Assembly: GCF_022549785.1 (NCBI RefSeq)
Contig: NZ_JAKZGO010000006.1
Span: 62,001-126,000 of the forward strand
Source of the DNA: Belliella alkalica
GTDB lineage: Bacteria > Bacteroidota > Bacteroidia > Cytophagales > Cyclobacteriaceae
Reading direction: 5' to 3'
DNA length: 64,000 nt
The notes under the pieces are model-generated. The model was not told the origin of the DNA. It did no database searches and was given only the letters and a program-made list of their open reading frames with translations. Each line of letters opens with the position of its first letter. The first letter of the stretch is position 1. This document shows, piece after piece, positions 20,187 to 47,764 of the stretch. The translations under genes were made by a program, and so were the position numbers.

Positions 20187-20647
20187 TTCAATTTTTATTT
20201 GCCATTTCAAAAATAACACAAACTATACGAGGAACATTAAATTATCATCCAAAAGAATTGTATTATTTCTCCATATGAAACTCATAATGTTGAATGATTC
20301 ATCAGGTCAATGTCTATTCTTGAATATTATTTATATGCCAAAAAAAATAGAGTTTGGTAAAAATGAATATTAAGTTTTTGGATAAAACATTACAATCACT
20401 AAGGGAAAAATTAAAAAATGACTCCACCAGCAGTCGTCCCTTAGAAATAAAAAAAAACACATCTTCAATATTTCAATTTCTTTAATCTACTATCCAAATT
20501 TTCTTTCAATAAATAAGACACAACTTTTTTAGAGAGGTCACTTTTTTGAATAAAAAAAATGAAAAAATTTATTATAAAGCTATCGTATGGTTTGAAAAGC
20601 TATACAGACAACTCTTTAGAAAAAAATTCGAATTCATTAAATCATCA
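20187..20647. other. 461-base gap with one sigma-motif site and short ORFs
   Basis: This AT-rich stretch contains the promoter-like motif described for 20516-20542. Two short plus-strand reading frames begin with ATG, 40 codons at 20363-20485 and 30 codons at 20559-20651. Both are within chance expectation for this base composition; the first has a protein-like mix of residues. I see no homologous domain. Confidence 0.4.
20516..20542 (-). promoter_or_regulatory. Candidate ECF sigma promoter, site 3
   Basis: The plus strand reads AGACAC-N15-GTCACT; on the minus strand this is AGTGAC-N15-GTGTCT, the layout of an ECF -35/-10 pair. The same motif with the same spacing lies before the sigma gene and before the orphan gene at 20648-21244. 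On the minus strand it would fire toward mce/thiL, 330 bases away, with no long ORF in between. Confidence 0.5.
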
Positions 20648-21244
20648 TTAAGCTTGCTGAATTGTATTGAAAACTACAAATGATGGAGATAAAACACTAT
20701 ACTCCTGAAACTCTTCAAATGATGATTCTAAAGTCAGCAAATCAAATTTTATCGTTTCCATGTTATTTAAATACAAGTTAGATCTATTTTGAAAATTTGG
20801 ACTTTTTAAATGTTTTACAATATTTTCAAACAAAACTTTTTTATCATATAACACTCCTCCTTTGTGATAGAAAATAATTTGAACTAATCTTTTATCCTGA
20901 AGACAACCATTATAAGCAGATCTTAGTAATTGGTTCACGCAAAACATCGTAATGTAAAGTGGTCCCCATTGACTATCATCCCCATTCAGCAGGACATATA
21001 TATAGTGTTTGATTTCATCTTCTTTTAGAATCCCACCAAACTTATACTTCAATACTATCTCAGCACTTTTTGATGGGTCATTCCAACTTATCGCTAGTTT
21101 GATACTATCTAACAAATCAACATCTCTAATCTTCTCTGGATTTGGAAACTCAAACAAATGTAATAGTTCCCTGTAATCATACAGAGTCCAAAAATTGGAA
21201 ATCCAATTAATCTTCTTTATCGACTGAATAATAATTCTTTCCAC
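20648..21244 (-). CDS. Hypothetical protein, candidate member of the local sigma regulon
   Basis: A 198-aa protein without signal peptide or membrane helix, with many aromatic and Leu/Ile residues. It appears to start at GTG (21244), with AGGAG about 15 bases upstream, and I recognise no domain. A candidate ECF promoter (21273-21299) ends 29 bases before the start, matching the motif in front of the sigma factor gene. Another copy lies 106 bases beyond its stop, so the gene is bracketed by imperfect direct repeats of about 36 bp. It may have been acquired. Confidence 0.6.
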   Translation of the reverse strand: MERIIIQSIKKINWISNFWTLYDYRELLHLFEFPNPEKIRDVDLLDSIKLAISWNDPSKSAEIVLKYKFGGILKEDEIKHYIYVLLNGDDSQWGPLYITMFCVNQLLRSAYNGCLQDKRLVQIIFYHKGGVLYDKKVLFENIVKHLKSPNFQNRSNLYLNNMETIKFDLLTLESSFEEFQEYSVLSPSFVVFNTIQQA

Positions 21245-21272
21245 AAATTGAAATAGTTTCTCCTATTCAATA

Positions 21273-21299
21273 AGACACGTTGGTCATTTATGGGTCACT
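21273..21299 (-). promoter_or_regulatory. Candidate ECF sigma promoter, site 2
   Basis: AGACAC (21273-21278), 15 bases, GTCACT (21294-21299); on the minus strand AGTGAC-N15-GTGTCT. The distance to the GTG start of the orphan gene is right for a 5' leader of about 20 bases. Confidence 0.6.
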
Positions 21300-21377
21300 T
21301 TTTTTTCATTATTTTTCTACTCAAAGCTGAAAATCAGTGTGATTTATTTTTTCTAACTTGAAAAAACAAGCTAGAAA

Positions 21378-22202
21378 CTACTTTTTTATGGTTGTCTCAT
21401 TTATGAATTCTTTGATTGGAATTGAAAATATACCTTCTTCATTTTTAATTGAGATCATAAGATTTCCAATTGACTCGACAACTCCTTCTATTCCTTTATA
21501 AATAATCCTATCTCCTACTTCCACATTTCTTCTTACATAGTATGTGTAGAGGATTTTTTGTACTACATCAATTGATCCCACCCCAAGTGAGATAACAAAA
21601 ATCAACACCAATCCAGCCAAAATTATCACTAGATTATTGGTAATGGCCGAAGTGTCAATATTTGCTTGATTAAGTGCTGTTACAGAAAAAATAATCAGTA
21701 TGACAAAAAAGACAAAACCGCTAATTAAAGAACTTCCTGCAATTGAAAGTGCTTCAAGAAATCCTTTAAGAGCTTTTTTAATAAAATTGGCTATATAAAG
21801 ACCGATCACAAATAGCGCTATCGCACTAAATAACTTAGGTAAATAAGTCACTAAACTACTTATTTCATTTGATATGATAGTCCATCCTAATATATCGGCA
21901 GCTACAGTTAGAAATACTAAGTATAAAATCCACCTTACAAATGCAACGATGACAGACGACAACTTGAATTCAACTCCAACTTCTCCAAACAGCTTTGCAT
22001 CTTTGATTCTTTCAGACAAATCATCTACCCTACTTGTCTTAAGGATTTTCTTTAGCAAAAAAGAGAGCAACTTAGTGATCAACCAACCCAAAACTAAAAT
22101 CACAACCGCCCCAAACAAGCTTAATAAGTTTGAACTCAATTGCTCTCCCATTTTCAGAAATGCATTCATCGTCACTTCTGCCCAATTTGTAATAGTCTTC
22201 AT
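21378..22202 (-). CDS. Small-conductance mechanosensitive channel-like protein
   Basis: A 274-aa inner-membrane protein with about five hydrophobic helices. The N-terminal TM with GAVVILVLGWLITK and the later helices match the MscS_TM/Cmp-like family (mechanosensitive channel TM helix repeats); the C-terminal part from 210 has VEVGDRIIYKGIEGVVESIG, an MscS-like beta domain. It should form a channel easing osmotic stress. It is third in an operon with an ECF sigma factor and a 62-aa protein (22-base gap), which points to envelope or osmotic stress control. Confidence 0.82.
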   Translation of the reverse strand: MKTITNWAEVTMNAFLKMGEQLSSNLLSLFGAVVILVLGWLITKLLSFLLKKILKTSRVDDLSERIKDAKLFGEVGVEFKLSSVIVAFVRWILYLVFLTVAADILGWTIISNEISSLVTYLPKLFSAIALFVIGLYIANFIKKALKGFLEALSIAGSSLISGFVFFVILIIFSVTALNQANIDTSAITNNLVIILAGLVLIFVISLGVGSIDVVQKILYTYYVRRNVEVGDRIIYKGIEGVVESIGNLMISIKNEEGIFSIPIKEFINETTIKK

Positions 22203-22224
22203 AATTCTTTTCTTTTATTTTTAA

Positions 22225-22413
22225 TTAATGCTTAGGTTTATTTTTGAAAAGATCATTTATAGACACTGGAAATGCATCTGTAAATAAATCCGATAATTCT
22301 AAAAGCAGTTTTGCTTTCGAAACATCAGACATTACTTTTTCCTTTAATCCAACAGGGACTTCCTCCAGCCTCGCGTCAAGATTTTTGAATGGATTTTTAG
22401 TATTCATTTTCAA
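22225..22413 (-). CDS. Small protein partner of the ECF sigma factor
   Basis: A 62-aa soluble protein. It overlaps the 3' end of the sigma gene by 17 bases, so it is co-translated. The segment with LEEVPVGLKEKVMSDV and KLLLELSDLF is one I associate with short proteins located between a sigma factor and a mechanosensitive channel in other Bacteroidota. It has no membrane helix, so it is not a classical membrane anti-sigma factor, but its position makes it a candidate modulator. Function unknown. Confidence 0.65.
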   Translation of the reverse strand: MKMNTKNPFKNLDARLEEVPVGLKEKVMSDVSKAKLLLELSDLFTDAFPVSINDLFKNKPKH

Positions 22414-22975
22414 TTTCTTTATAAGATCTCAACAGATTCATTTTTGCTCTGCTTAATCGCATCTTTACTGCACTTTGACCAACGCCAAGCACTTCCTGTA
22501 GCTCCTTGATCGAAGTGTCATCTTGATATTTCAACAATAAAATCATTTTCTCTTCATAGGTGACCCTCTGAAGTGCCATATCTAACTTTTTCGATTCCAA
22601 TTCCCAAAGAAGATGATCATTATCATCATCTTCTATTTCTGATAACTCATCTACTTTGGATGATTCACGTAACATCTTGGCATTCTTATCTCTATTTAGA
22701 TGATTTACGCAATAGTTGTATGTTAAGCTATATAACCAAGTTGAAAATTTTGATTTCCCTTTAAACTGCCTAATGGTGACAAACAACTGTAAAAAAACAT
22801 CATGGGCCAAATCTTCCGCCATTTCTGGTTGTTTGACAAAACTTAGACATTTGTTATACACCCTCTTTGAAAACCTGTTATAGAGCTCCTCAAAAAATTT
22901 AACATTACGATCTTTACCTACCCCGTAGGCCAATTCCTCATCTGTTAAAAGAAGTAAATCTACTTTTTCTTTCAT
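22397..22975 (-). CDS. RNA polymerase ECF-type sigma factor
   Basis: A 192-aa sigma-70 family factor. Region 2 (about residues 25-95) has the AHDVFLQLFVTIRQF and FSTWLYSLTYNYCVNHLNR motifs; region 4 (about 130-185) has LLLKYQDDTSIKELQEVLGVGQSAVKMRLSRAK in pieces typical of a DNA-binding helix-turn-helix. The start is put at ATG 22975, because the candidate promoter AGTGAC-N15-GTGTCT lies at 22987-23013 and would overlap a longer reading. It leads an operon with the 62-aa protein and the channel, and probably drives its own transcription. Confidence 0.88.
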   Translation of the reverse strand: MKEKVDLLLLTDEELAYGVGKDRNVKFFEELYNRFSKRVYNKCLSFVKQPEMAEDLAHDVFLQLFVTIRQFKGKSKFSTWLYSLTYNYCVNHLNRDKNAKMLRESSKVDELSEIEDDDNDHLLWELESKKLDMALQRVTYEEKMILLLKYQDDTSIKELQEVLGVGQSAVKMRLSRAKMNLLRSYKEIENEY

Positions 22976-22986
22976 ATTAGTAGTTG

Positions 22987-23013
22987 AGACACAAAACAAC
23001 TCAAAAAGTCACT
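22987..23013 (-). promoter_or_regulatory. Candidate autoregulatory ECF promoter, site 1
   Basis: AGACAC (22987-22992), 15 bases, GTCACT (23008-23013). On the minus strand AGTGAC and GTGTCT act as -35 and -10; the sigma gene's ATG is 12 bases beyond. Identical hexamers and spacing recur at sites 2 and 3. Confidence 0.6.
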
Positions 23014-29474: not shown

Positions 29475-29775
29475 AGGAGTTTTAGATTTTAGATCTTAGG
29501 TTTTAGATTTTAGATTTAAAAATGTTTCATCTTCGAAATCAGGGACAGTTCCGCAAATCATAAATCTACCATCTGAAATTTAAAATCAACCCACTATTTA
29601 TCTGTGGCAGAATAAAATTCGTGTACCTACCTCACTTAAGGGAGGATCTGCAAGAACCAACCCAATCCTAAATCTACTTTCTAAAATAAAAAATTAAGTG
29701 AAAATCAGCTATTGCTTTTTTTTGATTTTCGGGAATTTGAACTTTACTTTGCAATTACTTCAGTTTATTGATTTA
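29475..29775. other. 301-base gap with TTTAGAT repeats and the metZ promoter
   Basis: The first 55 bases consist of near-iterations of TTTTAGAT(T/C)TTAG, with a degenerate inverted counterpart around 29560-29590 (AAATCTACCATCTGAAATTTAA in part). At its right end TTTTTTTTG (to 29724), 19 bases, TTACTTTG (29744-29751) form a plausible promoter for the riboswitch transcript. No ORF is credible. Confidence 0.5.
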
Positions 29776-29862
29776 TAAAGAAGAGGTGAGAGAACAGGCT
29801 CGATGACCCTCTGGCAACCATCATACCCAATATGAAAGGTGCCAAAACCTGCCCAAAATGGG
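29776..29862 (+). ncRNA. SAM-I (S-box) riboswitch
   Basis: The conserved S-box core is readable: GAGGTGAGAGAACAGGC, then GATGACCCTCTGGCAACC, and AAGGTGCCAAAACCTGCC, in the right order and spacing. It senses S-adenosylmethionine and should turn down metZ when SAM is high. A 220-base tract follows before metZ, long for a simple expression platform; it includes a perfect 20-bp palindrome at 29922-29941. Confidence 0.87.
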
Positions 29863-29921
29863 AACTATAAATTAGATGTTATGTATATTTCTAATCAGTC
29901 TTTGTATTCTTTAAGGTTCAC

Positions 29922-46381: not shown

Positions 46382-47764
46382 CTAATCAATAATAGAATTT
46401 TTTACTTCAGCAATTGCATCTTCTAAACTACATGATTTCTGATCTCCTGTAAGTAAGTTTTTCAAGCTAACCTGTTTTTGCTCTATTTCTTCAGAACCCA
46501 ATATAATCACAAATGGTATTTGCTTTTTGTCTGCATAAGTAAACTGTTTTTTGATCTTTGCTGTATCAGGGTAAAGCTCGGCAGAAATCAAGCTGCTTCG
46601 AAGTTGGTTCAAAACCATCAACCCATAATCTCTTCCTTCATCATCAAAATAGGTAATCAAGACTTTGGTTCCTTCCAATTGCTTCTCCGGGAATAGATTC
46701 AATTCCTCCAAAACATCATAAATCCTATCTACACCAAAGGAAAAACCAACTCCAGAAACACCATCAAGCCCAAAAACACCAGTCAAATTATCATATCTCC
46801 CTCCTCCACTCACAGATCCAATTGATACATTGTTCACTTTCACTTCAAAAATCGCACCTGTATAATAAGACAAACCTCTAGCCAAGACAATATCAAAATC
46901 TACAAATTTCTCATCTTCACCATACTTGGTAAGCAACTCGAAAACCTCTTTTAATTCAGCTATCCCTTTTAATCCAACTTCAGAACTTGCCAAGAAAGTT
47001 GACAAAAAATCCAGCTTTTCTATATTCGACCCTTGAAGACTGATGATAGGGTTCAGCCTATCAATAGCTGCTTGCACAAAGTCTCTTTCGATCAATTCAT
47101 CTTGTACTTTTTCCCAGCCAATTTTATCCAACTTATCAATAGCTACACAAAGCTCAGCCTCCCTTCCTGCTGCACCTATCACTTCCGCCAAGCCAGTCAA
47201 TATTTTTCTATTGTTGAGTTTGATAGCATAATCGTCCAGTCCCAAATGAGCAAAAACCCGCTTGATCATCAACAGAATTTCCAACTCACAAACCAAACTG
47301 TCCGTACCAACCACATCGGCATCACATTGATAAAACTCTCTATACCTTCCTCTTTGCGGCCTATCAGCCCTCCACACAGGTTGGATTTGAAATCTTTTGA
47401 ATGGGTAAGTGATCTCATTTCTGTTCATTACCACGTAGCGCGCAAAAGGCACAGTCAAGTCATAACGAAGTCCTTTTTCGGAAACTTTTGGCAAAGTGGC
47501 ACCTGCTCCAGCCCCTAAATCAGCTACAGAGACATCTTTTAGATAATCGCCACTATTCAAGATTTTAAAAATCAACTGATCTCCTTCATCACCATATTTC
47601 CCAGTCAATGTACTCAGATTCTCCATAGAAGGAGTTTCTAGCTGCTGATAGCCAAAAAGCTTGAAAGTATCTTTGATAATGTCAAAAATATAATTCCTTC
47701 TCGCCATTTGAAGTGGTCCAAAATCTCTCGTTCCTTTTGGTAAAGTAGGTTTCTGAATTGCCAT
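46382..47764 (-). CDS. hisS: Histidyl-tRNA synthetase
   Basis: A 460-aa class II synthetase. Motif 1 lies near YQQLETPSME (38-47), the motif 2 region has FQIQPVWRADRPQRGRYREFYQCD near 122-145 in pieces, the His-binding GLSYYTGAIFEV is near 300-311, motif 3 GVGFSFGVDR near 335, and a C-terminal anticodon-binding domain ends the protein. It is monocistronic. A -7 box TAACTTTG lies 20 bases upstream. Confidence 0.97.
   Translation of the reverse strand: MAIQKPTLPKGTRDFGPLQMARRNYIFDIIKDTFKLFGYQQLETPSMENLSTLTGKYGDEGDQLIFKILNSGDYLKDVSVADLGAGAGATLPKVSEKGLRYDLTVPFARYVVMNRNEITYPFKRFQIQPVWRADRPQRGRYREFYQCDADVVGTDSLVCELEILLMIKRVFAHLGLDDYAIKLNNRKILTGLAEVIGAAGREAELCVAIDKLDKIGWEKVQDELIERDFVQAAIDRLNPIISLQGSNIEKLDFLSTFLASSEVGLKGIAELKEVFELLTKYGEDEKFVDFDIVLARGLSYYTGAIFEVKVNNVSIGSVSGGGRYDNLTGVFGLDGVSGVGFSFGVDRIYDVLEELNLFPEKQLEGTKVLITYFDDEGRDYGLMVLNQLRSSLISAELYPDTAKIKKQFTYADKKQIPFVIILGSEEIEQKQVSLKNLLTGDQKSCSLEDAIAEVKNSIID

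Follow-up and report, generated by a model that had tools for sequence, protein, structure and literature searches.

The DNA analyzed here, referred to as the window, is a stretch of 64,000 nucleotides (nt) from Belliella alkalica, a member of the Cyclobacteriaceae (NCBI RefSeq assembly GCF_022549785.1, contig NZ_JAKZGO010000006.1, positions 62,001 to 126,000 of the forward strand), in which an operon for an extracytoplasmic function (ECF) sigma factor is accompanied by three copies of a promoter-like motif. The operon and the features next to it lie on the minus strand. Its first gene (22397..22975) encodes the sigma factor of 192 amino acids (aa) with a conserved ATG start; sigma-70 regions 2 and 4, which define an ECF sigma factor of about 190 aa, were both found above the Pfam cut-offs (Sigma70_r2, 1.7e-13; Sigma70_r4_2, 5e-10), and the protein scores 97.1 bits against TIGR02937 (cut-off 42.9). 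The second gene (22225..22407) overlaps the sigma gene by 11 bases and codes for a soluble protein of 60 aa, a candidate anti-sigma factor or adaptor, and the third (21378..22202) is the structural gene for an MscS-like membrane protein of 274 aa (Pfam MS_channel_1st_1, 6.9e-18; MS_channel_2nd, 2.7e-05). Further along follow a gene for an orphan protein of 198 aa with a GTG start (20648..21244), a predicted small RNA of about 115 nt (20394..20509), the 5' end of which is inferred from its promoter and the 3' end of which is uncertain, and the genes mce and thiL.

The motif AGTGAC-N15-GTGTCT had been reported in a first-pass annotation at three places on the minus strand and nowhere else in the window, and both statements proved correct. 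Site 1 (22987..23013), the promoter of the sigma operon, site 2 (21273..21299), a predicted sigma-dependent promoter of the orphan gene, and site 3 (20516..20542), a predicted sigma-dependent promoter of the small RNA, are all exact matches within 2.5 kb, with unrelated spacers, and no other exact or one-mismatch copy exists in the window. The next best match (47528-47554) has 2 mismatches, and as 4 matches with up to 2 mismatches compare with 2.63 expected, the whole window is not unusual and the exact matches alone are. Site 1 had been placed immediately before the sigma gene, which holds for the conserved ATG (22975), separated by 11 bases from the -10 hexamer, but not for a reading of the open reading frame (ORF) from a TTG codon, which the site overlaps. 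The similar placement of site 2 is approximately right, with 28 bases between the site and the GTG codon of the orphan. In the complete genome of 4,951,846 bases there are 4 exact copies, the fourth within an ORF of 564 aa. With up to 1 mismatch 16 places were found and 12 for a reversed-pattern control, and because these two numbers are close, the signal of the motif is its exact cluster. In the 6 genomes with a close sigma ortholog, out of 148 family genomes, the pattern DGTGACY-N14-GTGTCYH gave 18 matches (control, 6), 14 of them at the sigma locus; the remaining 142 genomes had 36 matches, and there the reversed control was commoner (about 130 by hand count, 18 of these in one genome).

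Relatives of the operon were recovered by an alignment-based sigma scan of genome contigs; a single-sequence scan returned none. The 80 named loci (L numbers; genomes have G numbers), mostly from Flavobacteriaceae, are the best kept of at least 504 confirmed relatives, and as they are related to each other they do not represent independent events. In 78 of them at least 10 of the 11 core positions of the motif, and in 38 all 11, were present within 200 bases upstream of the sigma gene, compared with 0.2 of 80 in shuffles (largest value, 1) and 0 or 1 of 80 in seven offset windows; L188 and L199 had no match of at least 10 positions within these 200 bases. A stricter pattern covered 69 of 81 loci, with 88 matches and 4 reversed ones in 988 kb around the 81 loci. 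In all 5 close orthologs from Cyclobacteriaceae the sigma ATG follows GTGAC-N16-TGTC[CT] after a few bases, and from this proximity a nearly leaderless mRNA is to be expected, whereas among 13 more distant homologs a form GTGAC-N-[CT]GTC (script pattern) was found upstream of sigma and on the same strand in 5. Ten genomes reached via named loci contained 2 to 9 motif matches each, 38 in total, with 0 in the reversed control, and of the 30 matches inspected 29 were located outside ORFs of at least 80 codons. The comparison shows an apparent promoter conserved together with its operon, and although this is sequence evidence only, its retention at the ECF gene in 78 loci makes self-activation of the sigma operon, as proposed initially, well supported. 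The resemblance of the motif to ECF -35/-10 elements and the existence of a single local regulon, suggested at the same time, are likewise favored by comparison across sigma loci, the predicted regulon being very small and centered on one locus.

The order sigma gene, 60-aa ORF and mscS is kept in 79 of the 80 named loci, the exception (L155) running into a contig edge, and this supports the previously suspected link of the sigma factor to the MscS-like protein. The 198-aa orphan had been taken for the small partner of the sigma factor; the conserved partner is instead the 60-aa protein encoded between sigma and mscS, which the first-pass annotation had not mentioned. When 34 members of the 60-aa family were compared with Pfam and NCBIfam, no convincing match was obtained (best E values 0.036 and 0.037, from one and two members, respectively). 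Its predicted structure, covering 59 of the 60 residues, consists of an N-terminal tail and two helices (mean predicted local distance difference test score, pLDDT, 77; predicted template modeling score, pTM, 0.42). Within Belliella, the sigma factor was detected in 4 of 8 genomes searched (E up to 1e-40), and the operon adjoins mce-thiL in the window genome and in G108 and is found elsewhere in Belliella kenyensis and in G151. The four Belliella genomes without the sigma factor keep thiL with 94-96% identity; in two of them (G149 and G040) no operon gene was present in more than 7 kb read upstream of mce, and in the other two 313 and 654 bases upstream of mce were read.

Some additional genes were noticed near the operon in other genomes. 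A gene for a protein of 194 aa lies directly after mscS in L067 (3675-4259, minus strand) and L069 (6699-7283, plus strand), and the L067 copy displays a weak sCache_4 match below the cut-off (18.9 versus 22.1 bits), so that it is a possible sensor in an extended operon. Two uncharacterized proteins encoded near the operon in L068 (8076-8708, minus strand, 210 aa) and L069 (7872-8474, minus strand, 200 aa) are 27% identical to each other and have no Pfam match; the gene for the 210-aa protein lies 93 nt downstream of a motif site.

The orphan gene behind site 2 appears to be a lineage-specific target, and its product has no Pfam match at E values up to 1. As a conserved partner of the sigma factor it was rejected, as it has no homolog in the 3 other Belliella genomes of the 148-genome sample, including the operon-bearing G108. 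Distant orphan homologs occur in 16 other genomes, and at the 15 loci read (G110, the sixteenth, yielded no alignment) the motif was found in none of the 200-nt upstream regions. The 198-aa orphan is a local passenger. A second site within 400 nt after mscS is present in 19 of 79 named loci, compared with 0 of 158 control windows inside the operon, and such second sites recur in other genera with differing products: Cecembia lonarensis (G126), G020 and G151 have a lipoprotein of 139-148 aa there, L146 and L186 small proteins, and the Tenacibaculum clade predicted short RNAs. In B. kenyensis a lipoprotein lies behind a 10-of-11 site, and a 210-aa protein is encoded behind another site.

Site 3 had been described as facing mce/thiL, and it is better explained as the promoter of a small RNA. 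On the same strand, the stretch from site 3 to mce contains no ORF of at least 50 aa, and a noncoding block of 76 nt (20394-20469) is 94.7% identical to its counterpart in the sister species G108, whereas identity over the operon region of 1843 nt is 74.1%. The core of the predicted RNA contains an invariant hairpin, GACTGCTGGTGGAGTC (20420..20435), which is the same in the 6 copies compared. G108 possesses five exact core copies within 1.2 kb. Three of these are preceded by exact motifs, which are spaced by 186 and 194 bases and stand 74 nt upstream of the hairpin in each case, compared with a distance from motif to core of 81 nt in the window. The hairpin GACTGCTGGTGRAGTC is kept in all 6 copies (W3 of the window and copies 0 to 4 of G108) within two different outer stems, and the different outer stem of G108 copy 0 pairs too. 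Among the 148 family genomes, exact core copies were detected in the window genome (G000) and G108 alone, and the 4 Belliella genomes without the sigma factor have none. Copies acting in trans elsewhere in the family were considered and rejected: other matches have 2 mismatches, and the two that were read (L085 and L086) look coding. Neither the predicted RNA of the window nor L065 (2400-4100, searched at E up to 5) had an Rfam 15 match that reached the gathering score. The sole Rfam match in the window is a SAM riboswitch (RF00162, 77.8 bits) at 29770-29873 on the plus strand. Comparison of the copies shows the putative RNA core to be under selection, and site 3 most likely drives this small RNA rather than mce/thiL.

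A counterpart of this RNA is predicted in the Tenacibaculum clade. Of the 19 second sites, the 16 examined had no obvious protein gene behind them, and 15 of these showed a GGGG(G) loop; 14 of these loci are in Tenacibaculum records and one in a Bacteroidetes metagenome-assembled genome, and in each the second site after mscS is followed by a hairpin RNA, which in 14 of the 15 ends in an intrinsic terminator identified by script. Stem covariation was measured on 13 distinct rows in a loop-anchored, gap-free alignment; RNAalifold on MAFFT alignments of the whole Tenacibaculum RNAs had given no consensus pair. In the 13 rows 79% of the cells pair, both partners have changed in one row or more for 8 of the 10 pairs, and 30 cells with double changes compare with 12.0 after shuffling (reached by 0 of 500 shuffles). 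Covariation amounted to 0.664, compared with 0.295 +/- 0.041 in shuffles (0 of 500) and at most 0.208 after sliding. Two of five stem measures do not exceed the shuffles (107 and 225 of 500), two inner pairs are mostly unpaired, and fold tests with shuffled arms gave p values from 0.0035 to 0.17 for each of 9 of these RNAs. In the 9 Tenacibaculum loci scanned with Rfam there was no match at the RNA site; three of them (L192, 4723-4845; L198, 1551-1622; L208, 3971-4042) have a Flavo-1 RNA (RF01705) upstream of the sigma operon, at a distance of 1 to 2.5 kb.

When 71 chosen sources were searched with a model of the 15 RNAs, further copies were detected directly after mscS. Of 18 such extra (first) copies listed, 15 were tested, and upstream of all 15 stood the housekeeping box TAnnTTTG, a consensus taken from PMC9723704 (1.3 expected from shuffles), and upstream of none the ECF motif. 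The 15 second copies showed the opposite, with the ECF motif in 15 and the housekeeping box in 0; as these second copies were found via the ECF motif, only the result for the first copies is independent of selection, and the rows of both sets are related to each other. The Belliella and Tenacibaculum RNAs are alike in their place, their promoter and their tandem copies, and in a four-base loop that C-G closes in most rows. Away from the operon, three tandem motifs with no long ORF between them were noticed in G154 (C1:1111140-1111878; L260) and G155 (C1:861920-862422; L248), where another small-RNA array is possible. In L246 and L263, ORF-less stretches behind a motif contain CCCCC or CCCCCC, which could pair with the GGGGG loop of the RNA predicted at the sigma locus of the same genomes; pairing of these C-runs with the G-loop is suggestive only.

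From these results it seems likely that the locus is a self-activating envelope-stress sigma operon whose sigma factor also recognizes sites 2 and 3, giving a lineage-specific protein and a structured RNA. Site 1 would be read by the ECF sigma factor encoded behind it, and since the sigma factor would then read the promoter of its own operon, free sigma factor should raise the amounts of sigma factor, 60-aa protein and MscS-like protein. Judging from gene order and from the SigX-CfrX-CmpX system of Pseudomonas aeruginosa, the 60-aa protein most likely keeps the sigma factor inactive, with the MscS-like protein most likely relaying membrane tension via the 60-aa protein; hypo-osmotic sensing by the operon is suggested by analogy only. 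The same sigma factor would read site 2, leading to the lineage-specific protein, and site 3, from which a short structured RNA would arise, with its invariant loop as the probable target-pairing part.

Several observations weigh against this interpretation as far as the RNA is concerned. The exact core was not found in G143 and G151, two Belliella genomes with the sigma factor, and a pattern scan revealed no U-rich terminator for the window RNA and none in L065. The fold energy is ordinary compared with dinucleotide shuffles (z from -0.27 to -1.37, five copies) and modestly low compared with mononucleotide shuffles (p from 0.009 to 0.08, six copies). The promoter is degenerate in G108 copy 4, which is orthologous to the window copy, and short frames cross the hairpin in these two copies. 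The model of the Tenacibaculum RNAs does not detect the Belliella RNA, and for this reason homology of the two is unproven.

Among other explanations, site 3 might be a sigma promoter that gives mce-thiL a long leader, in which the conserved block would be a cis-acting element and not a free small RNA. Both lie on the same strand, no clear terminator precedes mce in the window, and the core is upstream of mce in both the window genome and G108; however, the five tandem copies of G108 would be unneeded for a leader element, mce-thiL lacks the core in sigma-less Belliella, and the terminator of the Tenacibaculum counterpart (14 of 15 loci, by script) does not fit, so that we consider a leader unlikely. 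A coding function of the site-3 transcript, for a small hydrophobic peptide, is quite improbable. An ATG-started frame of about 30 codons extends over the hairpin in the window copy and G108 copy 4, and for these two copies the reading is retained as a minor possibility, but G108 copies 0, 1 and 3 have no ORF starting with ATG, GTG or TTG over the invariant hairpin, copy 2 has just an unrelated frame of 20 codons there, and the outer-stem change in copy 0 is compensatory. We also give little credence to the motif being an operator for a DNA-binding regulator instead of a sigma promoter; its half-sites GTGAC and GTGTC are similar and about 21 bases, or two helical turns, apart, yet spacing and position relative to the starts fit an ECF promoter, the -10 form is CGTC in 5 of the 13 more distant homologs, and motif and sigma gene travel together. 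It is very improbable that sites 2 and 3 are functionless by-products of a local duplication of site 1, for although duplication is evident in the G108 copies (80% identity over 524 nt), the spacers of the three window sites are unrelated though both hexamers are exact, and other genera also have second sites after mscS, with products that differ.

Regarding the self-activating operon with its additional promoters more broadly, a wider reading is evenly balanced between being right and wrong: the operon would be a widespread mechanosensing-type sigma operon of Bacteroidota whose dedicated output is tandem small RNAs exposing a loop, with Tenacibaculum twins transcribed from a housekeeping box and from a sigma promoter, and with C-run stretches elsewhere as possible sponges or partners. 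If true, the tandem RNAs would constitute a family of stress-linked small RNAs in which the housekeeping-box twin provides an internal control.

In Escherichia coli, sigma E with RybB and MicA is an envelope-stress sigma factor with a small-RNA arm. Like sigma E, the Belliella sigma factor is predicted to have short RNAs transcribed from its own promoter type in its regulon; unlike those of sigma E, the RNA genes predicted here adjoin the sigma operon and are often in tandem, and the Rfam search gave no sign of a relationship in sequence. The SM6 promoters of Flavobacterium psychrophilum, in which a CGT box at -10 is attributed to ECF sigma factors, are likewise of ECF type and from Bacteroidota, but they are tied to type IX secretion and Band-7 genes, and the parts of that paper considered here mention no MscS or small-RNA array (PMC9723704). 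BatR from Bacteroides thetaiotaomicron is also a Bacteroidota small RNA and acts on cell-surface genes, but according to the sections used it has a -7 promoter box and belongs to another locus (PMC10861873). Among the titles and abstract openings listed in literature searches, none links an ECF sigma factor, MscS and small RNAs in Bacteroidota. A class I anti-sigma domain is reported near only 6% of the ECF sigma factors of Bacteroidetes (PMC7406223, in part), and this rarity lends value to the conserved 60-aa protein as a candidate regulator.

The closest known system is SigX-CfrX-CmpX from P. aeruginosa, as in both cases an ECF sigma factor is encoded beside a small soluble protein and an MscS-like channel. 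The genes for CfrX and CmpX are sigma-dependent, CfrX (84 aa predicted) is a proposed soluble anti-sigma factor and CmpX a channel (PMC8999054, PMC7641640, as far as their consulted sections go), and SigX (ECF102) is described in the review PMC8999054 as the only studied ECF sigma factor regulated by a mechanosensing complex. With its adjacent MscS-like channel gene the Belliella operon shares one feature of this mechanosensing class. The two systems differ in gene order, with sigma, small protein and channel in one operon in Belliella and, according to the same sources, cmaX-cfrX-cmpX upstream of sigX in P. aeruginosa, and in the regulon, which is broad for SigX whereas in the Belliella genome intergenic copies of the motif occur at one locus alone. 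The sigma factor scores 92.7 bits against the SigX model PRK09640.1 (cut-off 194) and is still the best of 19 matches to this model in the genome; because it stays below the cut-off, the locus is not filed as SigX. The 60-aa protein, small and predicted to be helical, occupies a place like that of CfrX and may be its counterpart. If these likenesses hold, Bacteroidota would possess a second, widespread and compact version of a mechanosensing ECF system, whose sharp promoter and few sites would allow a clean dissection of tension sensing.

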